In this document: positions 2,969 through 17,492 of the stretch, piece after piece
Position numbering within the stretch: the first letter of the stretch is position 1
Layout of the letters: the number at the start of each line of letters is the position of its first letter
Assembly: GCA_013152845.1 (NCBI GenBank)
Contig: JAADFM010000134.1
Span: forward strand, 1 to 17,492
Length of the DNA stretch: 17,492 bases
Direction: 5' to 3'
Origin: Methanobacteriota archaeon
Lineage (GTDB): Archaea > Hydrothermarchaeota > Hydrothermarchaeia > Hydrothermarchaeales > JAADFM01
Program-made: the position numbers and the translations under genes
Notes under the pieces: generated by a model
The model's database searches: none
The model's input: the letters and a program-made list of their open reading frames with translations, nothing else
Told to the model about the DNA's origin: nothing

Positions 2969-3939
2969 GGCGCCAGGCGTTTTTCCATCATCTCCAGGGC
3001 GAGTTTTACGGCATCTTCGAGGCGGTCGTCCCGCCCCCTGGCCCCCGCGGCCCCGGCGTGGCCCCCGCCGCTTCCGCCCAGGAGGCGGCCGAGTTCAGGC
3101 ATGATGTCCGAGCCCAGGCTGATGCCGGTCTCCCGGACGAACCTCCCCCTGGCCCTACCGTGGATGCGCACCTCGCCGCCGTCTCTTGACGCCACCAGGG
3201 CGCAGTCGGCCCCGAGGTGCAAAAGGTGCATGGCGGCAGAGGAGGCGAAGGCATTGACCCGGGAGGTGACGACAAGCCAGTCGCCGAAGCGGTGGAGCTC
3301 GGCGCGCTGGGCAGCCTTCAGGTGGGCCGTCCGCCTGGAGATGTCCTCCGGGACCTGGAGGAATCCGTTGGCATCCTCCAGCTCAAGGCCCGAGGTCTCA
3401 AGGAGGTCGGAGAGGACGTGGATGGTCCCGCCTGTGGCATAGCGCAGCCGGGCAGAATCTGCCATGATGCCGCACAGGAGGGCCAGGGCCGCATCCCTGT
3501 CATCCCGGATATGGTCCCTGAGGTAGGGGTAGAGGATCTCGCAGGTCGAGGAGGCCGCCTCCCTGACCAGGTACAGGTCTGCCACCTCCCTGGTGTCGGG
3601 ATGGGGGGCGTGGTGGTCGATGACGGCAATGAAGTCGCCGAGCTTTGTTGGGTCCAGTGGCCCTATCTGGTCCAGGGTGGGGGTGTCCAGGAGGAAGAGG
3701 TAGCCGGCCCGCTCTCCGGCCCGGGGCAGGGTCTCCTCGCAGAGGGCGTCCAGCAGGAGCCTGCCGTAAGCCGACGGTCCGCCGGGCACCACGATGGAGG
3801 TCCCGGCCTCGGGGGCGATGCCGGCCAGGTACCTCTTCAGCGCCACCGCACTGCCCAGGGCGTCCAGGTCCGCATTGATGTGGGTCAGTATGAGTATCCT
3901 GCCGGTGAATCCCTCGATATCCTCTAGGAGGTCCTTCAT
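2965..3939 (-). CDS. DHH/DHHA1 family phosphoesterase
   Basis: This 324-residue protein has the full set of DHH motifs. Motif I is THINADLDALGSA (H20, D24, D26), motif II LLDTP (D85), motif III VIDHH (D108, H109, H110) and motif IV MADSARLRY (D161). The C-terminal DHHA1 domain ends with the glycine-rich GSGGGHAGAAG at 289-299. The family uses two Mn2+ ions to hydrolyse phosphodiesters or phosphomonoesters. NrnA-like members degrade nanoRNA or pAp, while others act on cyclic dinucleotides or serve as exonucleases. As the last gene of an exosome operon, a role in finishing RNA degradation is attractive but inferred. It starts 2 bp after the prefoldin beta gene. Substrate cannot be decided from sequence. 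Confidence 0.9.
   Translation of the reverse strand: MKDLLEDIEGFTGRILILTHINADLDALGSAVALKRYLAGIAPEAGTSIVVPGGPSAYGRLLLDALCEETLPRAGERAGYLFLLDTPTLDQIGPLDPTKLGDFIAVIDHHAPHPDTREVADLYLVREAASSTCEILYPYLRDHIRDDRDAALALLCGIMADSARLRYATGGTIHVLSDLLETSGLELEDANGFLQVPEDISRRTAHLKAAQRAELHRFGDWLVVTSRVNAFASSAAMHLLHLGADCALVASRDGGEVRIHGRARGRFVRETGISLGSDIMPELGRLLGGSGGGHAGAAGARGRDDRLEDAVKLALEMMEKRLAP
2979..2984 (+). terminator. Weak T-run after queE
   Basis: GTTTTT follows the GC-rich GGGCGCCAGGCG about 11 bases after the queE stop. Archaeal transcription can stop at T-runs alone. It lies inside the last codons of the convergent DHH gene, where it encodes part of EKRLAP, so it may be coincidental. Confidence 0.25.
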
Positions 3940-3941
3940 CG

Positions 3942-4310
3942 TCAGCCGGCCCTGGCCGCTCCCTGACCTGCGGGCCGCAGCTGGGCCTGGAGCTTCTCCT
4001 GCATCTCCTTGAGGCGCTTCTGCATCTTCTCCTCCTGTTTCTGGAGGGTCTTTATCCTCAGGTCAAGGACCTCCTTGCGCTCGGCCAGGTCCTTCTCAAG
4101 GGTGGCCTTGTCGCTTCTGAGGAGCAGGCCGCCGACGCTCTTGTAGACCTCGGCGTCCTCGGAAAGCTTCCCGAGCTCCTCCATGCTGCGCTCCACCTCC
4201 CTCAGCTGGACCTCCATCTGCACCCTCTGGGAACCCATGGCCTGGACCTGCTGCTGTATCTGCTGGAACTGGGCAAGCATGTGCTGTACTTCCTGGGGGA
4301 TATGTTCCAT
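3942..4310 (-). CDS. pfdB: Prefoldin subunit beta
   Basis: This 122-residue protein is mostly two long heptad-rich helices flanking a short hairpin (KSVGGLLLRSDK), the fold of beta-type prefoldin. Prefoldin is a hexamer of two alpha and four beta chains that holds unfolded proteins and passes them to the thermosome. The start MEHIPQEVQ at 4310 is chosen because it follows GGAGTGAT, which overlaps the pcc1 stop, and matches the usual family N terminus. A longer in-frame start at 4355 would add 15 residues inside pcc1 and is unlikely. The C-terminal tail (QLRPAGQGAARAG) is probably disordered. It sits between pcc1 and the DHH gene, as in other archaeal exosome operons. Confidence 0.93.
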   Translation of the reverse strand: MEHIPQEVQHMLAQFQQIQQQVQAMGSQRVQMEVQLREVERSMEELGKLSEDAEVYKSVGGLLLRSDKATLEKDLAERKEVLDLRIKTLQKQEEKMQKRLKEMQEKLQAQLRPAGQGAARAG

Positions 4311-4315
4311 ATCTA

Positions 4316-4561
4316 TCACTCCTTCTCCATCAGTTTGAGGATGAGCTTCATCCACCGGGAGTAGGTATTGACCCCTGCCCGGAATGCGGCCCGGTCGTCC
4401 CCTTCGATGAGGAGGGTCATCCTGGGACCGTCTATCTCGAGGGCCTCCCGCCCCCGGTCCCCGGGCCCGTCCTGGAGCTCCGGCTGGAGGGCCCCGAAGG
4501 CGACCCCGGCATCGCGCTCGTCGTCGAACTGGATTGCAATCTCGGCTCTTGCCAGGACCAT
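4316..4561 (-). CDS. pcc1: KEOPS complex subunit Pcc1
   Basis: This small gene of 81 residues lies inside a longer open frame that extends upstream to 4816. Only the part from ATG 4561 looks like protein: MVLARAEIAIQFDDERDA, then MTLLIEGDDRAAFRAGVNTY and SRWMKLI. This beta-beta-alpha pattern ending in an NTYSRW-like helix is that of Pcc1 / CTAG-Pcc1 proteins. Pcc1 is the dimerising subunit of KEOPS, which with Kae1, Bud32 and Cgi121 makes N6-threonylcarbamoyladenosine at position 37 of tRNAs. The start follows AGGT and lies 2 bp past the rpoP stop, and the stop is 5 bp before the prefoldin ATG. Archaeal exosome operons often hold this gene between rpoP and prefoldin. Identity is by motif and position. 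Confidence 0.85.
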   Translation of the reverse strand: MVLARAEIAIQFDDERDAGVAFGALQPELQDGPGDRGREALEIDGPRMTLLIEGDDRAAFRAGVNTYSRWMKLILKLMEKE

Positions 4562-4563
4562 CT

Positions 4564-4701
4564 CTACCTGGCCTTCACCTTCTTTACGACCTTGGGCCGG
4601 TCCTTGAATATCATCTTGTGGCCGCAGAAGGGACAGCGGAGGGTACCCCTCTCCTGGAGGTTCTCCACCACCTTCCCGCATTTCCCGCACCGGTACACCA
4701 T
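4564..4701 (-). CDS. rpoP: DNA-directed RNA polymerase subunit P (Rpb12-like)
   Basis: This is a 45-residue gene starting at ATG 4701. The product begins MVYRCGKCGKVV and has a zinc ribbon C5-x2-C8 / C23-x2-C26 (LRCPFCGHKM), followed by a basic tail (KDRPKVVKKVKAR). This is the whole of archaeal RpoP, the counterpart of Rpb12, which sits on the Rpo3/Rpo10 side of RNA polymerase. Family length is about 45-50 residues. The ATG follows GAGAGGT, which overlaps the end of the L37Ae gene (3-bp gap). The TAG stop is 2 bp before the pcc1 ATG. Small size makes it easy to miss, but the cysteine spacing, basic tail and operon position leave little doubt. Confidence 0.93.
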   Translation of the reverse strand: MVYRCGKCGKVVENLQERGTLRCPFCGHKMIFKDRPKVVKKVKAR

Positions 4702-4704
4702 GGC

Positions 4705-4974
4705 TTACCTCTCCTCTTTTATCCTCTTGAGGGTCCTTTCCGCAATGCCGGCGGCAGCGGTCTTGGGCAGGTACGCCCCTCCGGTGTACTTTGCGCCGCA
4801 CTTGCGGCAGCTCCATATACCGCTGGCAAGCCTTTTGACACCCATCTTCTTGCAGACCGGACAGCGGTGCAGCGGCCTCTGCTTCTTCTCGATTTCAAGC
4901 CATTTCTTCCTGGTACGCATCCCGTACCTGGGCCCGAACTTCCCTGAGATTCCTGCCTTCTTCGTCCTTCTCAT
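4705..4974 (-). CDS. rpl37ae: 50S ribosomal protein L37Ae (eL43)
   Basis: This 89-residue ribosomal protein begins RRTKKAGISGKFGPRYG, a highly conserved start. It carries a C4 zinc finger C38-x2-C41 / C56-x2-C59 (HRCPVCKK, WSCRKCGAKYTGGAY). It binds 23S rRNA in the large subunit. The start at 4974 follows AGGTGAG, which overlaps the TAG of rrp42 (11-bp gap). L37Ae between rrp42 and rpoP is a standard part of the archaeal exosome superoperon and ties RNA processing to ribosome and polymerase supply. Length is normal and nothing is unusual. Confidence 0.97.
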   Translation of the reverse strand: MRRTKKAGISGKFGPRYGMRTRKKWLEIEKKQRPLHRCPVCKKMGVKRLASGIWSCRKCGAKYTGGAYLPKTAAAGIAERTLKRIKEER

Positions 4975-4985
4975 CGTCTTCTCAC

Positions 4986-5765
4986 CTAGAGGAGTTTTCG
5001 GAGTTCTTTCGCCTTCTCTTTGGATTTATTAACGAGCTCCAGGATTTCCTCCTGGGTGAAGGTCCCGGGCCCGCCCTTCTGCATGGCGCAGATATCACCG
5101 TCCTGGTTGGTCCCGATGGTGAGCCTGGCGTCCAGGACCTGCTCCTCGTTGAGGTTCGGGTCCAGGACGATGCCCTTGCCTATCTTGACGAAGGTTGTCT
5201 CCATGGGCTTGTCCCTGACCGGGAGTGGGCCGGTCTTCTCTTCGTAGATTACCATCTCGTCCTCGTACTTCGGCATCTGGGTGTTGAGCAGTGCCGCTAT
5301 GGCGGCCAGGGTACCGCAGTCGAAGAGGTTGCCGTCGTAGTCCAGGATGTGCAGGTCAAGGAAGGCGATCCAGACCGCCTCCTTCTCGGTTATGCAGAGG
5401 GCGTCGAAGTCAACGGCCCCGGATTCCCGGATGACCCTGTCGATTACCCTGGCGACCTCGATGGCCTCCTGGCTTGGCGGTCCCTTCTCGAATGTTGGGG
5501 CTGCAAGTGGGATGAGCTCCGCACTGGTGGTGAGCACCCCCGAGGACGGCGTGTCCGAGTAGGGCTCCCCGACTATCAGCTTCACCCCGGCGGCCACCAG
5601 GGTGTTCCCCATGGTGACCTTGGCCGAGCCGTCGGCCTTCTGGTAGATGCCTGTCTCGATTTCGATGGGCCTGTACTCGTCGAAGCCCCGGCCGTCTATC
5701 CTCTTGCCCTCTGCGATGAGGGAGGCTATGTAGTCCCTCTCGACCTCTGATATGATGTCTTCCAT
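4986..5765 (-). CDS. rrp42: Exosome complex subunit Rrp42 (RNase PH-like, non-catalytic)
   Basis: This 259-residue RNase PH-fold protein pairs with Rrp41 in the hexameric ring of the archaeal exosome, the 3'-5' RNA phosphorolysis and tailing machine. Family features include RIDGRGFDEYRPIEIETG near the start, GSAKVTMGNTLV, DTPSSGVLTTSAEL and the central SGAVDFDALCI. Rrp42 is inactive by itself but supplies RNA-binding and structural contacts to the Rrp41 active site. The ATG at 5765 lies 2 bp after the rrp41 stop, with GGAGGCGAC overlapping the end of rrp41. The C-terminal helix is lysine-rich (NKSKEKAKELRKLL). Length is typical. The assignment over Rrp41 rests on lack of the catalytic aspartate motif and on gene order. 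Confidence 0.97.
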   Translation of the reverse strand: MEDIISEVERDYIASLIAEGKRIDGRGFDEYRPIEIETGIYQKADGSAKVTMGNTLVAAGVKLIVGEPYSDTPSSGVLTTSAELIPLAAPTFEKGPPSQEAIEVARVIDRVIRESGAVDFDALCITEKEAVWIAFLDLHILDYDGNLFDCGTLAAIAALLNTQMPKYEDEMVIYEEKTGPLPVRDKPMETTFVKIGKGIVLDPNLNEEQVLDARLTIGTNQDGDICAMQKGGPGTFTQEEILELVNKSKEKAKELRKLL

Positions 5766-5767
5766 CT

Positions 5768-6490
5768 CTAGTCGCCTCCGCCGTACTTCTCTATGAGGGC
5801 CTCTTTCTGCTTCTCATAGACCTGGTAGCAGCCCTCGACCGCGAGCTTGAAGGCCCGCTCGAACTCGTCGCCTTTGAGGTTCCCGTCCATCTGGAGGAGG
5901 GTCACCTCCCCGGTCTTCGGGATTATGGCCACCGGGAGGTCTGCCGAGCCGAAGTTGTCCTCTATGTCGAAGAGGTCCAGGACGATCTCGCCGTCCACCT
6001 TGCCCGCGGCACAGGCGGGCACCAGACTCTTCATGGGAATCCCTGCATCGGCCAGGGCCACAGAAGCCGCCGTTATCCCGGTGCACCTGGTCCCGGCCTG
6101 GGCCTGGAGGATCTCGATGAAGATGTCGATGGCGGTCCTGGGGTAGAGGTTGGTCAGGACCACCGGCTCGAGTGCCTGCCGGGTCACCAGGGATATCTCC
6201 TGGCTCCTCCTGTCAGGACCGGGGCGCTTCCGGTCTATGACCGAGAAGGGTGCCATGTTGTAGTAGGTCCTGAGGACCGCCCTGTCAGGGCGCATCATGT
6301 GTTTCGGATGGACCTCCCTGGGGCCGTAGCAGGCTGCGATGACCTTGTTGCCGCCCCATTCGAGGTAGGCGGAACCGTCCGCGCGTTTCAATACCCCTGC
6401 CTTTATCTTCAGGGGTCTCAGTTCATCGACCGCCCGTCCGTCGAGGCGCTTACCGTCGATGATGAACTTTTCTGGCTGTCCAACTTTCAT
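5768..6490 (-). CDS. rrp41: Exosome complex subunit Rrp41 (catalytic)
   Basis: This 240-residue RNase PH-type subunit is the active 3'-5' phosphorolytic chain of the archaeal exosome. The phosphate-binding segment [18 protein letters not shown] is at 133-150. The catalytic-region aspartates fall in LFDIEDNF and SADLPVAI (D178, D184), and the RNA-binding arginines are in DRRSQEIS. The N-terminal [20 protein letters not shown] is the usual family start. The ATG overlaps the rrp4 stop (ATGA, 6487-6490), indicating translational coupling of the cap and ring subunits. The stop lies 2 bp before rrp42. All key residues I expect are present, so it should be catalytically competent. Confidence 0.97.
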
Positions 6491-7155
6491 ATCTTTTCCC
6501 TCTCTTCGATTATCATATCCTTGATGCTGTCGGTAAGCCCGGGCAGGTGGGCTTCCCTTTCGATTTTCTGGAGGGCCTTCACCACGATGTCCACCTTCCC
6601 GGACTCGCCCTTTATCCAGACCCTTCCGTTCTGGCCGACCTTTATGGTGGTGCCCGTCTCCTTGCGTATCATGTTTATCATGGACATCTTCTTCCCGATG
6701 ACCCTGGGGATCTTGGTTGGGGTAATCTCCACTACCCTGCCGCCCCGGAGTATCCTGGCCACCCTCTCCCTCATGGTCAGGTATATCTTCCTGGTGGGGG
6801 TCACCTCCCTCACCCGCGCATAGACGAGGGTCCCGATGGGCATGACCTCCAGGAGCTCGGTGGAGTAGGGGTCCAGCCTCCTGTAGAAATCGTCGGAGCT
6901 TAAGATGCCCACGTAGGGGGAGTTCAGGTCGATGTCCCAGTTGGAGTAGAGCTGCTCCACCACCTGGCCGATGATGTAGTCACCGACCTTGGGGATGTAC
7001 TTGCCCGTGATGGGGATGACCCTCACGTAGTTCGGTTTCTTGTCCAGTAGTCCTATAAGGGACGAATACACCTTATCGCCGTCCCGGTACACGCCGCCGC
7101 CGAGCCTCACCCTGCCCTCGGCAACCTCGTCCCCGGGAAAAACCATCTGTCTCAT
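6487..7155 (-). CDS. rrp4: Exosome complex subunit Rrp4 (S1/KH cap protein)
   Basis: This 222-residue RNA-binding cap subunit sits on the Rrp41/Rrp42 ring and threads substrates in. It has three parts. The N-terminal domain ([16 protein letters not shown]) anchors to the ring. An S1 domain at about 65-140 contains [14 protein letters not shown] and [13 protein letters not shown] domain at about 145-210 has [19 protein letters not shown]. The start overlaps the SBDS stop as ATGA (7152-7155), and its own stop overlaps rrp41 in the same way. A second in-frame ATG three codons in is possible, but the first is the one coupled to SBDS. Csl4 and DnaG, other exosome parts, are not in the window. Confidence 0.97.
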
Positions 7156-7844
7156 AGTATCTTGGTCTCCACTTCACCTTTTGTAATGCTGTTGAGCTTA
7201 TCGAAGAAATCGTCCACGATTCCGGCAGGCAGGTCCATCACGAAGACCCAGGAGCCGTCCTTCTGCCACTCCTCCTTCCTGATGTCGCCGAACTCCCTGA
7301 CCGCTGCCATGCACCTGGGGGCGTGCTCGGGTGGTATCTTCACGGCAATCCTCTTCTCCTCGAATTTTATGGGGATGATGGGCCTGAGGAGCTTCAGGGC
7401 GAGTTTCACCTGCTCGTCCACCGACTTCGTCAGGTCCACGTGGAACTTGGCCTCCTCCAGGGCCGCCTCTATCCTCGCCGGGGGATGGGGGGTATCTGTC
7501 TGGGGGTTGATGGCGTTCCTTGCGATGGTGGCGATTATCCTCTTCTTCTTCTCTTCCATGGCCCTGCGCCGCTGCTCGGTGGTGAACTGGATGTCACCCT
7601 TCTTCACGATGGCCTTGGCCACCTCCATGGGGTCAACGGTCCCGAAGCGCTTCTGCATCATCTCCTCGGAGGCCTTCTCCCCCTTCTTGGAATCCTTGAA
7701 GACCGTCTCCACCGCGAGGAGCTTGGAGAGCTCCACGTCCTTTCCCCGCTTGAACTCCATGGCAAGGTCGGCGTCCACCAGGACCTCGTACCTCTCTCCA
7801 TGGGTATCGAGCCGTGCGATGACGGCATCATCCATGGTTACCAA
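7152..7844 (-). CDS. sdo1: Ribosome maturation protein SBDS (Sdo1 homologue)
   Basis: This 230-residue archaeal SBDS/Sdo1 protein acts in late large-subunit maturation, helping release the anti-association factor aIF6. The N-terminal FYSH domain (AVIARLDTHGERYEVLVDAD), the helical middle (FGTVDPMEVAKAIVKKGDIQ, TEQRRRAMEEKK) and the ferredoxin-like C-terminal domain (IPIKFEEKRIAVKIP) are all present. The start chosen is TTG at 7844, giving MVTMDDAVIARL. This matches the common family start MVSLDDAV. The GGAGTGAGGG purine stretch just upstream, at the end of psmA, is also better spaced for it than for the ATG at 7835. The stop overlaps rrp4 by 4 bp. Conserved SBDS-exosome linkage is well known in archaea. 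Confidence 0.95.
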   Translation of the reverse strand: MVTMDDAVIARLDTHGERYEVLVDADLAMEFKRGKDVELSKLLAVETVFKDSKKGEKASEEMMQKRFGTVDPMEVAKAIVKKGDIQFTTEQRRRAMEEKKKRIIATIARNAINPQTDTPHPPARIEAALEEAKFHVDLTKSVDEQVKLALKLLRPIIPIKFEEKRIAVKIPPEHAPRCMAAVREFGDIRKEEWQKDGSWVFVMDLPAGIVDDFFDKLNSITKGEVETKIL

Positions 7845-7850
7845 GGACCC

Positions 7851-8582
7851 TCACTCCCTGTCTTCCTTGGCGTGTTTGGAAAGGTATTTCCCAACTTCAT
7901 CGGGGCTCAGTTTGCGGAACTTCTCGGTGTCCTTGTCGATGACCGCAAGCTCCACCGTCTCATTGGAGGCCCTGCCCTCGGTTATCTCCATGAGGACCTT
8001 GAAGGCAAGGTCCACGGCCTCCTCCTGGGACATGTTCTCGTCGTACTCCTTCTCGAATATCTCCATGGCCGTGTTCCGTCCCGCGCCGATGGCGGTGGCC
8101 CGGTACTCGATGAGCGCCCCCGAGGGGTCGGTCTCAAACAGCCTCGGCTCGTCGTTGACCCCCGCAATCAGCAGGGCGATGCCGAAGGGCCTCACCCCCC
8201 CGTGCTGGGTATAGAGCTGCTTGAAATCGCAAATCCGCTTGGAGAGTACCTCTATGTCGATGGCCTCGTTGTATGTAATCCTGTTGGCCTGGGCCTCGAT
8301 CCTGGCCCTGTCAATCAGCACCCTGGCGTCGGCCACAAGGCCCGAGGTGGCGGCCCCGATGTTCTCGTCAATCTGGAATATCTTCTCAATGGACTCGGCG
8401 ACTACGAGCTTGGAGGTAATCCTTTTGTCAACTGCCAGGACCACGCCCTTTTTGTACCGTATCCCTATGGACGTCGTCCCGCGCTTGACAGCCTCCCTGG
8501 CATATTCCACCTGGAACAGCCTGCCGTCAGGGCTGAAGACCGTTATCGCCCTGTCATAACCCATGCTAGGCATTGGTTGCAT
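7851..8582 (-). CDS. psmA: 20S proteasome alpha subunit
   Basis: This 243-residue alpha chain forms the outer, gating rings of the archaeal 20S proteasome. The N-terminal [21 protein letters not shown] is the alpha signature, with the YDR gate motif at 9-11. The following [15 protein letters not shown] is equally typical. No N-terminal catalytic threonine exists, as expected for alpha. The start at 8582 follows GGATGGTGAAAG. The stop lies 6 bp before the SBDS TTG. The beta subunit and PAN ATPase are not in the window. The position between RNase P pop5 and SBDS is standard for this superoperon and underlies the proposed exosome-proteasome link. A possible promoter of its own is noted at 8616-8626. 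Confidence 0.97.
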
Positions 8583-13874: not shown

Positions 13875-14555
13875 ATGTTTGGCATACCTGAAGTCATCTC
13901 CACCGGGGATTGGCGGACCATCCTCCTCTTCGCCTTTGTCCTGGGCCTATTTACCGGTGCGGGCCGGTGTCTGGCCATCTGCGGCCCCCTCTTCGCCCCC
14001 CTTGCGACAGCGAGAGCCGGCTCGCGGCGCGGCGGATGTACCATGGCCCTGGCCTTCGGGGCGGGCAGGCTCCTCACCTATGTCCTCCTGGGGGCCATGG
14101 CCGGGCTCTCGGGAGGAATCCTCCTGGGGGACCTCCAGTCCCCGGTGTTCATGAATGCGGCGTATGGTGCCGTCGGCGGGCTCGGAGTAGCCCTCGGCAT
14201 TGTCCAGTTTTCCGGGCGCGGGTTCCCGGGCCGGAAGGCGTGCGCACGCCTGGGCCGGGAGGGAGTCGCAGGGGCCTTCATCATGGGGTTCGGGGTGGGA
14301 TGGGTTCCCTGTCCCCCGCTGATGGAGTTCCTGGCACTGACCATGGCGGAGGGTAAGGTGCTCCTGGGCAGCCTCATGCTCCTGGTATTCGGCCTGGGCA
14401 CGGCCCTGCCACTCCTGCCGGTGGGATACGTCTCCGGCGGGCTGTCGCAACGCTTGGAGGTACTGCAAAACCGGACCGTCCCGGAGAGGGCGGCGGGGCT
14501 TTTACTCATCCTCTTCGGCCTCTATCTGATGCTTGTGCCACTAAGAAAACTTTAA
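13875..14555 (+). CDS. CcdA/DsbD-SafE (UreH-like) family membrane protein
   Basis: This 226-residue protein has about six hydrophobic segments in two similar halves. The first half starts LFAFVLGLFTGAGRCLAICGPL and the second GAFIMGFGVGWVPCPPL. Each half has a cysteine next to proline/glycine (C36 in AICGP, C146 in VPCPP). This resembles the paired membrane cysteines of CcdA/DsbD proteins, which carry reducing power across the membrane. C32, C55 and C123 are additional. Related SafE/UreH-like proteins are also annotated as sulfite or metal exporters, so the transported species is open. The ATG at 13875 lacks a ribosome site, and the frame has no better start. It is divergent from serA. The stop overlaps the TATA element of the next gene. 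Confidence 0.75.
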   Translation: MFGIPEVISTGDWRTILLFAFVLGLFTGAGRCLAICGPLFAPLATARAGSRRGGCTMALAFGAGRLLTYVLLGAMAGLSGGILLGDLQSPVFMNAAYGAVGGLGVALGIVQFSGRGFPGRKACARLGREGVAGAFIMGFGVGWVPCPPLMEFLALTMAEGKVLLGSLMLLVFGLGTALPLLPVGYVSGGLSQRLEVLQNRTVPERAAGLLLILFGLYLMLVPLRKL

Positions 14556-14582: not shown

Positions 14583-16775
14583 ATGAGCGAGCCGAAGCAC
14601 GTCGAGTTTCCGGGCAGATATGCCGCCCTCCTGATCGGTCCTCCCGGCATCGGGAAATACGAGTATTTCCTGGATTTGGTGAAGATCTATCTCGAGAAGG
14701 GGGAGAAGGTCATCTTCGTGACCACCGAGAAGGCCCCCGAGGACATAAAAGCCAGGCTCCAGGAGGAGGGCTTCGACCTGGACAGGTACGAGGGCACTGA
14801 TTTCATCTTCGTTGACATCTACTCCTATTCCTCGGGCACCAAGTATGAGAAGGGCCTGCATGTTGACAACCCCGCAAACCTGAACCTCATAAGCATCAAC
14901 ATCAACAAGGCCCTGGAGAAGGTGGGCAAGCCTGCGAGGATATTCTTCGATTCCCTCTCCACACTCTTCCTCCACGCCTCCGAGGGCGAAATCAAGAAGT
15001 TCTTCGGCACCCTCAACTCCAGGGTGAAAAAGGACAACGGGTTCATCCTCTACAGCCTCCAGGACGAGATGCACGACGACCAGACTGTCATCACGTTGAA
15101 GCACCTGGTGGATGCGGTCCTTGAGATGCGCTTCGACGAGGGTCCCCCCCTGAAGCGGCAGTTCAGGGTCCACCATGCCAAGGGGCTGAAAACCACCCCC
15201 GTCTGGCAGAGTTTCGAGATAGGGGACCAGGGGTTCGAGTTCATAGAGGAACCCGAAGAACCGCCCGCCGAGGCCCCCCCGTCCGCACCAGCAGAAACCG
15301 CCCCCGCCCCAGCTGCGGCCCCTGCCCCAACGCCTCCTGTGGAAGATGTTGTAAAGCCCAAACTCCCGGTGGTCAAGATAGGTATCGCCATGGCGGTCCT
15401 GGTTATTGGTGCCGTTGTCTTCCAGGTCATATCCCCCTTCTCCGGCGAGGGGGAGACCACCACCCCGGAGTCCGGACCCACCCTCCCTTCCGGGACGGTC
15501 GGAGAGGAGTACCAGGTCTTCGAAGAGAAGGCCCTGTACCGCATGGACCTTGACAGGACGGTGAACGTTGGGGGCGAGGAAGTCAAGGCCTTCATCGACG
15601 TGAAGAACATCCGGGACACCAATGCCCCCAAACTGGGGAGGATTGTCATCGAGACCCCCTTTTACATCATCGACATCTACCAGGACGGGGCCAACCTGGA
15701 GGAGATGCGGCCCGGGCCCCACTACCTCATCTATGACAAGCTGAACAAGCGTGACCTCCTGGTCTTCAACGACAGGGTGGAAAACCCCATCGACATGCTC
15801 ACCGGCTCAACCCTGGGCTACGCCGACCTGGACGGCGAGAACATGGTCAGCTTCTCCAGCATGGCCCTCCACGACGAGAGCGGGATAAACTTCAAAATCG
15901 TAACCCAGGACAAGGAGAAGGGCTTCCTCCTGGTCAACACCGAGGGCTGGGACTTCCAGAGCCCCGACCAGAGGAAGGGCTACGACGTCGAGGGCGAAAT
16001 CATGCTGGGCATCTTTGCCGACAAACCCTACTTCATCGATGCGACCGAGATTGACAACCTCCAGACCCAGGGCTTTGCCATGGAGCGCGGTTTCAGGAGC
16101 CCGGACGAGATTGTCAGGGACTGGGTCCTGCGGGGGGACTACGATTCCGCCGTGATAAAGGGCGGGGACCCCAACCACCTCAACGGGGAGACCGTCTGGC
16201 AGCCATTCTACGAGGTCCAGTCACTGAGCGGGGGGCTGAGGAAGTCGTGGCATGCAGGCTCTGCGTCATTTTCCAAGATGTTCCCTGACCACGTCCTCAT
16301 CGGCAACACCCTCGGGGGCGGGGTGATTTTCAGCCTCCCAAAAGGCAGGTTCAGGTTCGATGACTCCCAGGGCATATACGGGGGTCAGGTCAATGCGGAG
16401 TTCATAATCATGGTGGAGCACCCGGAAAAGGCCACGGCCTTCTCCGCCGACCCCGTGAACCGGAACTCCTTCTTCTATGACGCCGTGGACTTTGGGAGCA
16501 CGCCGGGGTATGCGGAGTCCATGGAGGAGATATGCAACAGGTACGGCCTGCCCTATCCGGGTGGGATAATCGATGCCCACCAGTGGCAGACCAAGAGGTT
16601 CGCCTATGTCATCACCCTGGTGGACGACTGGTACGACCCGGCCTTCAACTCTGCCAAGGAGGCATGGGCCCAGGCCGATGCAGCCCTTGAGGATTTCGAG
16701 AACTACGAGGACATCATCTACAAGAAGATGGAATCCACAAAGCCGCTGCTGGCCAAGATGATGATGACGCCCTAA
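14583..16775 (+). CDS. Membrane-anchored KaiC/RecA-like ATPase-domain protein with large unknown ectodomain
   Basis: This 730-residue protein has four parts. (1) Residues 1-222 form a KaiC/Rad55-like P-loop domain. Walker A-like GPPGIGKY is at 19-26, with Y26 where Thr or Ser should be. VTTEKAPEDI at 46-55 corresponds to the KaiC catalytic-glutamate region, and Walker B-like IFFD is at 120-123. (2) Residues 223-262 are a Pro/Ala/Glu linker (APAPAAAPAPTPP). (3) One membrane helix lies at about 266-284 (IGIAMAVLVIGAVVF), with lysines before it and acidic residues after it, predicting N-inside and C-outside. (4) About 445 residues of beta-rich sequence with a helical end are not recognised by me. 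Only one cysteine is visible (EEICNRYG). ATP hydrolysis may be weak or lost. A soluble KaiC gene follows after 36 bp. The function is not known. Confidence 0.85.
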   Translation: MSEPKHVEFPGRYAALLIGPPGIGKYEYFLDLVKIYLEKGEKVIFVTTEKAPEDIKARLQEEGFDLDRYEGTDFIFVDIYSYSSGTKYEKGLHVDNPANLNLISININKALEKVGKPARIFFDSLSTLFLHASEGEIKKFFGTLNSRVKKDNGFILYSLQDEMHDDQTVITLKHLVDAVLEMRFDEGPPLKRQFRVHHAKGLKTTPVWQSFEIGDQGFEFIEEPEEPPAEAPPSAPAETAPAPAAAPAPTPPVEDVVKPKLPVVKIGIAMAVLVIGAVVFQVISPFSGEGETTTPESGPTLPSGTVGEEYQVFEEKALYRMDLDRTVNVGGEEVKAFIDVKNIRDTNAPKLGRIVIETPFYIIDIYQDGANLEEMRPGPHYLIYDKLNKRDLLVFNDRVENPIDMLTGSTLGYADLDGENMVSFSSMALHDESGINFKIVTQDKEKGFLLVNTEGWDFQSPDQRKGYDVEGEIMLGIFADKPYFIDATEIDNLQTQGFAMERGFRSPDEIVRDWVLRGDYDSAVIKGGDPNHLNGETVWQPFYEVQSLSGGLRKSWHAGSASFSKMFPDHVLIGNTLGGGVIFSLPKGRFRFDDSQGIYGGQVNAEFIIMVEHPEKATAFSADPVNRNSFFYDAVDFGSTPGYAESMEEICNRYGLPYPGGIIDAHQWQTKRFAYVITLVDDWYDPAFNSAKEAWAQADAALEDFENYEDIIYKKMESTKPLLAKMMMTP

Positions 16776-16782
16776 GGAAAGA

Positions 16783-16790
16783 TTTATATT
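16783..16790 (+). promoter_or_regulatory. TATA-like element before the soluble KaiC gene
   Basis: TTTATATT follows GAAAGA, a BRE-like purine stretch. Its centre is about 26 bp before the ATG at 16812, implying a start at or next to the ATG. However, a strong GGTGAT site (16803-16808) lies in that gap, so cotranscription from the upstream gene is also possible. Confidence 0.5.
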
Positions 16791-16811
16791 CAGATGAGGT
16801 AAGGTGATATC

Positions 16812-17492
16812 ATGGAAAAAACGCCGACAGGAATAGCGGGTCTTGACGAAATGCTGGACGGAGGCATCCCTACCGGTTACACCGTGCTGGTCTCGGGGGG
16901 GCCGGGCTCTGGCAAGAGTACCTTTGCCATGCAGTTTTTGACCAACGGCAAGGAGATGTACGGTGAGGACGGGGTGTATATCACCATGGACGAACGCCCC
17001 TCGGAGATTGACCGCAACTTCGCCCAGTACGGCTGGGACCTCAGCAAGATAATGCTCCTCGGCCTCAACATCAGGCAGGCCACCGATACAACGGAGGTAA
17101 AGTACACCACCCTCGACGAGGACAAGAGGGAACACTCCAACATCATAGAACTGGACGTGAAGAAGATATCCGTGGATTCGCTGAAGGACTTCATCACCGA
17201 CATCGAGGACAAACGCCAAGAGGCTCGTGGTGGATTCCCTGGCCTCTTTCGCCCTCCAGATGCAGAACGAGTACGAGGTCCGCCAAGAGGTCCTGACCCT
17301 GGTGAACCTCCTCCACGACCTCAACTGCACCACCCTCCTCCTATCGGAGAGGCCCGAAGGCACCGAGGGCATCAGCAGGTTCGGCGTTGAGGAGTTCATG
17401 TGCCAGGGGGTCATGCTCCTCTATAATATGAAGGTGGGTACCAAGAGGTCCAGGGGTATTGAAGTCTTCAAGATGAGGGGTACCAACCACAG
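16812..17492 (+). CDS. KaiC-like ATPase, frameshifted near 17214-17220 and truncated by the window end
   Basis: The protein begins MEKTPTGIAGLDEMLDGGIP, the typical KaiC/RecA-superfamily start. Walker A GGPGSGKST is at 29-37 and the catalytic-acid region YITMDERPSEI at 56-66. The first frame is convincing up to about residue 135 (17216). Beyond that it gives a Pro/Arg-rich nonsense tail ending at a stop at 17388-17390. Family sequence resumes in the +1 frame from 17218. It reads KRLVVDSLASFALQMQNEYE, which is Walker B, then TTLLLSERPEGTEGISRFGVEEF and GTKRSRGIEVFKMRGTNH, open to the window edge. One extra base, or two missing, explains this. GGTGAT precedes the ATG. It may be a pseudogene or an assembly error. 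The likely role is as a soluble partner of the upstream membrane KaiC-like protein, an inference from adjacency. Confidence 0.85.
17211..17222 (+). other. Frameshift site in the KaiC-like gene
   Basis: Codons for D-K-R (…GACAAACGC) end the first frame. Conserved K-R-L-V-V-D begins at 17218 in the +1 frame. Removing one base, for example from the CC at 17216-17217, restores one continuous reading frame through the Walker B motif. No long homopolymer is present to explain a simple run-length error. Confidence 0.85.

Follow-up and report, generated by a model that had tools for sequence, protein, structure and literature searches.

In the window (the whole stretch of DNA that was analysed, 17,492 nucleotides), positions 14583..16775 of the plus strand form one open frame with an ATG start, which encodes a protein of 730 amino acids, referred to here as the receptor. 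Its N-terminal part, predicted to lie on the cytoplasmic side, is a degenerate KaiC/RecA domain (residues 9–223, 14607..15251) that matches PF06745 with 60.3 bits, above the cut-off of 26.6, and is overlapped by a Pfam match to DUF7504. In its Walker A motif, GPPGIGKY (residues 19–26, 14637..14660), the Ser/Thr is replaced by Tyr, and a Walker-B-like strand, ARIFFDSL, is found at residues 118–125 (14934..14957). The domain is followed by a Pro/Ala-rich linker (residues about 224–256, 15252..15350) and by a single membrane helix, whose core, the best 19-residue window of a Kyte–Doolittle scan, comprises residues 257–275 (15351..15407); by eye, the helix reaches about residue 283. The C-terminal ectodomain (residues 299–730, 15477..16772) is predicted to be a galactose-mutarotase-like supersandwich and is ordered in the AlphaFold model from about residue 308 to the end (~430 residues). 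A preliminary description of this DNA had named a KaiC/RecA-like N-terminal domain, a proline/alanine linker and then one hydrophobic helix, all of which were recovered; its remark that it knew of no named family with this arrangement agrees with the finding that none of the Pfam and NCBIfam models covers it. According to Pfam, the receptor itself has neither a REC nor a kinase domain. Identity with ArlH was considered and rejected, the FlaH model PRK06067 giving only 23.0 bits (cut-off 194) and the ArlH model being unmatched by the receptor. With region 285–730 as a 446-residue query, relatives were found at 86, 81 and 66% identity over 98–100% of the query, and since those at 86% and 81% cover the whole of it, the layout is regarded as more than chance.

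A DsbD/CcdA-type membrane protein is encoded 27 bp upstream of the receptor on the same strand (13875..14555; PF13386, 94.2 bits). No tblastn match to it was found in loci L011–L019 and L021–L027, nor in a second set of 11 loci. Downstream lies a gene for a soluble KaiC with an intact Walker A motif, GGPGSGKS (16812..17490, plus strand; PF06745, 109.3 and 78 bits). It is split over two frames, with the break near 17199–17225, and the contig ends inside it, which leaves any following ATPase out of view. The break was attributed to an assembly error or a broken copy, because in L018, L039 and L041 the related genes have an uninterrupted frame. Between the two genes (16776–16811), a TATA-like element, TTTATATT, was noticed by eye about 22–29 bases before the KaiC start; given this element, the soluble KaiC gene may have its own leaderless promoter. 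Elsewhere in the window, the minus strand carries an apparent archaeal exosome/proteasome cluster (4705–8582), whose genes we take to be those for an L37Ae-like protein, Rrp42, Rrp41, Rrp4, SBDS and proteasome alpha.

Relatives of the ectodomain were sought at an E limit of 1e-3 with a tool that works by shared 5-residue words and similar length. The search with residues 285–730 returned 80 proteins (weakest E 1.3e-94) and a profile search 91 (weakest E 3.0e-112); combined, they gave 97 distinct proteins and no weaker matches. As the weakest E values lie far below the limit, the family has, as far as a tool of this sensitivity can show, a sharp boundary. Two further ectodomain proteins, P0098 and P0099, came from a search with the KaiC domain. 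The matched ectodomain ends 0–11 residues from the C-terminus in all 97 members; this position, together with a KaiC head in 35 of them, led to the rejection of the receptor as a chance joining of two genes.

It was found by AlphaFold and fold search that the ectodomain models as a galactose-mutarotase-like supersandwich and that its closest folds are, by title, mostly sugar enzymes, namely mutarotases, GH38, GH174, PL26 and rhamnogalacturonan lyase. On the sequence level, Pfam at E ≤ 10 returned DUF2774 alone (E 0.14), and a profile search of the PDB sequences gave no sequence of the galactose-mutarotase class and nothing else of relevance. The beta-rich region without a recognisable motif of the preliminary description therefore does lack a Pfam family, but a fold can be assigned to it by modelling. 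A search of viral contigs with one protein query gave no relative, and a viral fold library gave two matches at E ≤ 0.001, with TM-scores to the query of 0.33 and 0.36. Polar residues are invariant at several positions in the 80-row alignment of the ectodomain, e.g., D385, D415, D431, H557, R591, Y632, D633 and W683. Galactose mutarotase itself has a catalytic His and a catalytic Glu in a cleft.

The ectodomain occurs in 8 of the 23 genomes of the window's phylum and in none of the other 175 archaeal genomes of a 198-genome set; in the class of a Methanophagales genome, it was found in 4 of 58. The spread is patchy; each genome that has the ectodomain has a single copy, which in one case is in two pieces, and several of the genomes that carry it are incomplete, the window's own being at 62.7%. 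A Methanophagales gene of this family in L019 (5368–6786) is broken into several frames. Judged by sequence, the ectodomain is an orphan family of Hydrothermarchaeum-like and Methanophagales archaea. It had been asked whether the order of ATPase, helix and ectodomain is conserved across archaea; the order does recur, in 35 of the 97 members, but in restricted lineages.

Exactly one hydrophobic helix was found in 90 of the 97 members by the Kyte–Doolittle scan. The remaining seven have none, and they appear to be truncated at the N-terminus, because no more than 22 residues precede the ectodomain match in any of them. Among the 90, Lys and Arg are more numerous in the 15 residues before the helix than in those after it in 69 members, equal in 15 and fewer in 6, with means of 3.6 before and 1.2 after per 15 residues. 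Where members were scanned for modules, the zinc ribbon, TIR and CBS were located before the helix and PKD (P0023) after it, positions that fit a KaiC domain inside and an ectodomain outside the cell. This predicted topology is well supported, and the charge-based assignment made earlier (the ATPase inside, the big domain outside) was supported in both respects. The alternative that the hydrophobic stretch is buried in a soluble fold was rejected on the retention of the helix and on the placement of the modules on its two sides.

The part of the protein before the helix varies within the family. A KaiC head is present in the 35 members mentioned above, 16 of which also show a zinc-ribbon pattern; this pattern occurs without KaiC in a further 11 of the 97, while 44 have the helix but neither module and 7 lack the helix. 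Among the 44, TIR is found in P0030 and CBS in P0026, the other 42 having inner tails of 1–153 residues. P0030 (600 aa) consists of a TIR domain, one helix and the mutarotase-like ectodomain, which amounts to an archaeal Toll-like layout. A tree of the ectodomain was built from the 73 sequences in which 370 or more residues could be aligned, the rest being dropped. In this tree, the TIR member stands beside a zinc-ribbon KaiC member with a support of 1.0, and KaiC members appear at two separate places, several connecting nodes being weak. KaiC is only one of several interchangeable heads predicted to be cytoplasmic, the others being the zinc ribbon (with or without KaiC), CBS, TIR and a short tail.

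The KaiC domain of the receptor keeps the RecA-type fold, the Walker B Asp123 and a TTE motif, and D123 and S124 are invariant in a 34-row alignment (A3). The Walker A motif is degraded: GK[S/T] is found in none of the 36 receptor members that include the region. The Ser/Thr is replaced by Y, H, F, L or K, or the motif reads GEK or GER, in all 36, and in the 6 with GEK or GER the P-loop Lys itself is displaced. The domain is probably inactive, and as the Ser/Thr is gone throughout, a nucleotide switch within the receptor is unlikely. The proposal of such a switch in the preliminary description was not upheld; the intact KaiC is encoded by the next gene.

A search with receptor residues 1–225 returned 42 proteins at E ≤ 1e-10. 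Nine of these (P0101–P0107, P0109 and P0110) form a sister group, which resembles the receptor in having a related KaiC domain (50–56% identity) and one helix, but differs in having an intact GKS Walker A (9/9) and another outer domain. The outer parts of this group are beta-rich by eye; one protein passes the cut-off of PF06439 (3-keto-disaccharide hydrolase), which we take to be a lectin-like fold, and one falls below it. CIA30 was matched below threshold in 2 of the 3 pieces given to Pfam, and the one piece that was searched against PDB sequences had no match. In P0108, the KaiC domain is C-terminal, after four hydrophobic segments, and reads GKF. Another KaiC-helix protein, with a GKS Walker A, is encoded in L053 (1–1888), and its outer part ends in cysteine-rich repeats of the CCGNGICD type. 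Free-standing relatives of about 220–250 residues carry GKF, GKH or GKQ; they lie near a response regulator in all six loci read (L056, L057 and L059–L062, three of which represent one family), with a histidine kinase nearby in L060 and L061 (Pfam). In a separate listing of 50 entries no ArlH chain appeared, which does not count as negative evidence.

Soluble KaiC relatives were defined as at least 51% identical to the copy in L018. Such a gene is the immediate neighbour of the receptor in L018 (G011, Candidatus Hydrothermarchaeum profundi) and L039 (G020), and in L041 (G012) one gene lies between the two; G014 has it as well, on a contig other than that of its receptor, and so does G015, in which no receptor turned up. 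Directly beyond the soluble KaiC, a T2SSE ATPase (PF00437, 165–172 bits) is encoded in L018, L039 and L041, so that receptor, soluble KaiC and T2SSE occur together in 3/3 KaiC-type loci with enough flank, two of the three (G011, G012) coming from one family. For this ATPase, ArlI/FlaI was the best of the 19 models matched, with 298–302 bits (below the cut-off of 550), and the partner KaiC reaches 34–39 bits to ArlH (cut-off 215). No match to T2SSF, the pilus platform, lies in the three loci; in all three genomes (G011, G012 and G020) the T2SSF matches are at other places. In L014 (G016), where the receptor has a zinc ribbon but no KaiC, a longer KaiC and a T2SSE are encoded at a distance of about 1 kb, and the same pair in G017 is on a contig other than the receptor's. 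In both cases (L014, 8022–10157; L048 of G017, 3784–6394), the KaiC of about 400 aa overlaps the ATPase gene, and in L014 its N-terminal part of about 155 residues has no Pfam match. Similar ATPases, with no KaiC in the 9–9.5 kb read, occur in two genomes that lack the receptor, G001 and G006. A double-ATPase pilus locus was also noticed in Hydrothermarchaeum (L050, 2948–6106), where two T2SSE matches in one frame of 1052 aa are followed by two T2SSF-bearing frames; similar frames of about 1000–1140 aa with two T2SSE matches occur in other genomes.

Directly upstream of the receptor, L018 (2796–4457) and L041 (8831–9523) carry orthologous membrane genes of 63% identity, the former with a sub-threshold match to the PMT_2 glycosyltransferases. 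This gene was rejected as a part of the system: G011 and G012 belong to one family, and the receptor is missing from 8 of the 15 genomes in which the gene occurs.

Eight loci with non-KaiC receptors were read (L014, L016, L017, L019, L040, L042, L043 and L045), L042 and L043 being from one genus. In seven of them, the receptor stands beside a large secreted beta-helix/NosD or CWB2 protein, six by Pfam and the seventh, in L019, by 81% identity, along most of the protein, to its counterpart in L017; L014 has no large surface protein adjacent. All but L014 show no KaiC or T2SSE match within 5.4–15 kb.

The interpretation we favour, with a probability of about 50%, is that of a kinase-less transmembrane receptor that senses the surface or its glycans and acts, by way of the adjacent active KaiC, on an ArlI-like ATPase. 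The ligand of the outer mutarotase-like domain would be a glycan or some glycosylated part of the cell surface (the S-layer, an exopolysaccharide or one of the large secreted beta-helix proteins), and its binding would make the inner pseudo-KaiC change in arrangement or in oligomeric state. The pseudo-KaiC would dock on the soluble KaiC encoded next to it and change the latter's ring or autophosphorylation state, and the soluble KaiC would in turn gate the secretion ATPase, much like ArlH does with ArlI in the archaellum. In receptors without the KaiC domain, zinc ribbon, CBS or TIR heads would take its place. The architecture, the predicted fold, the lost P-loop residue and the co-location are what the analysis shows, and the glycan ligand, the contact with KaiC and the effect on the motor are what we infer; control of KaiC and then of T2SSE is proposed because pseudo-KaiC and active KaiC are co-located, because ArlH acts on ArlI (PMC8978795) and because KaiC ATPases are proposed pilus regulators (PMC4858521). 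In favour of the receptor model are the ectodomain fold common to sugar enzymes, the one helix with variable inner heads, the Walker A Ser/Thr lost in the receptors and kept in their soluble partners, the co-location with KaiC and T2SSE, the response regulators near the free-standing relatives and the sister group with other outer domains. Against it stand the suitability of the fold for an enzyme, the end of the window's contig before any ATPase gene, the small number of KaiC-type loci that could be read (three, two of them from one family), the pair on another contig in G017, the missing T2SSF, the non-KaiC loci with a large surface protein but without KaiC or T2SSE (7/8), the soluble KaiC without a receptor (G015) or apart from it (G014) and the weak tree nodes. 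Of the earlier suggestion that the outer domain is a sensor or surface effector coupled to an internal nucleotide switch, the sensor or surface role is plausible, but such a switch in the receptor itself is unlikely. More tentatively, a lineage-specific superfamily of archaeal receptors can be considered that would work without a histidine kinase and would combine an outer domain for glycan recognition and one helix with interchangeable inner outputs; in its KaiC branch, surface contact would be relayed to a pilus-type motor ATPase through pairing of pseudo-KaiC with KaiC.

Other explanations draw on much of the same evidence. It is rather improbable that the ectodomain is a tethered sugar enzyme (a lyase, epimerase or glycosidase) by which the cell trims or remodels glycans on its own surface, with the inner domain as a mere anchor or regulator, even though the nearest folds, the invariant polar residues (D385 to W683 above) and the PMT_2-like protein upstream of the receptor in G011, with its orthologue in G012, all point that way. 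The ectodomain matches no enzyme family by sequence, anchoring alone would hardly account for an exchange of signalling-type heads, and the PMT_2-like gene, present in 15 of 23 genomes, does not adjoin the receptor gene of the window, of L039 or of L014. The large secreted proteins beside most non-KaiC receptors and the T2SSE beside the KaiC-type ones would also suit a structural coupler or adhesin, whose ectodomain grips S-layer or beta-helix proteins while the inner domain ties it, stator- or anchor-like, to a pilus or archaellum-like motor. This is unlikely, given that no T2SSF lies beside the KaiC-type receptors and that the short tails (1–153 residues) of 42 of the 44 helix-bearing members without KaiC or zinc ribbon offer no obvious motor contact. 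It is very improbable that the KaiC domain of the receptor, with its unusual P-loop, nevertheless functions as a nucleotide-dependent switch; the retained RecA fold, Asp123 and TTE motif and the GKS of the one-helix sister proteins speak for it, but the loss of the Ser/Thr after the P-loop Lys is without exception, and the Lys itself is displaced in six.

The receptor family is a concrete, conserved candidate for what feeds archaeal KaiC hubs from outside the cell, testable with three proteins, and the exchange of heads, including one TIR, would, if true, reveal an archaeal receptor logic resembling that of one-helix receptors elsewhere. The literature searched contained no earlier description of the fusion, the ectodomain family or the head exchange, the likeliest place for one, Makarova et al. 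(2017, mBio), being outside its scope. It likewise contained no paper joining Hydrothermarchaeota with KaiC or KaiC with galactose mutarotase, and none on KaiC with carbohydrate binding and a transmembrane receptor in archaea.

Signalling through KaiC is already known, as are KaiC domains that have been inactivated and KaiC genes in the vicinity of pilus ATPases. The galactose-mutarotase-like superfamily (GalM, part of GH38, PL26, rhamnogalacturonan lyase and GH174) shares with the ectodomain the predicted supersandwich fold, but there is no detectable sequence relation, and the ectodomain is an orphan family anchored by a single helix. KaiC ATPases whose genes neighbour operons for the pilus ATPase and TadC have been described as potential regulators of archaeal type IV pili (Makarova et al. 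2016, PMC4858521); the passages on them name no membrane receptor, and 'mutarotase' is absent from the main text. The ArlH–ArlI pair of the archaellum, in which presumably only ATP-bound ArlH can stimulate ArlI, is similar in that a KaiC-family protein is encoded beside an ArlI-like T2SSE ATPase (PMC8978795). The partner KaiC and ATPase described here differ in falling below the ArlH and ArlI cut-offs. To our knowledge, the pseudo-KaiC receptor is no part of the archaellum. A role as signalling hubs in archaea has been proposed for KaiC-family proteins (Makarova et al. 2017, cited in PMC5847659), and iKaiC, the inactivated KaiC-like domains of archaeal signalling, have been described in fusions with REC, DUF835, MEDS and HalOD1 (Galperin et al. 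2018, PMC5847659). As portrayed there, iKaiC resembles the receptor in its degenerate KaiC fold and, as far as the receptor's free-standing relatives near response regulators indicate, may resemble it in its signalling context and its link to such regulators; the receptor differs in that its KaiC domain is joined through one helix to a large outer domain.
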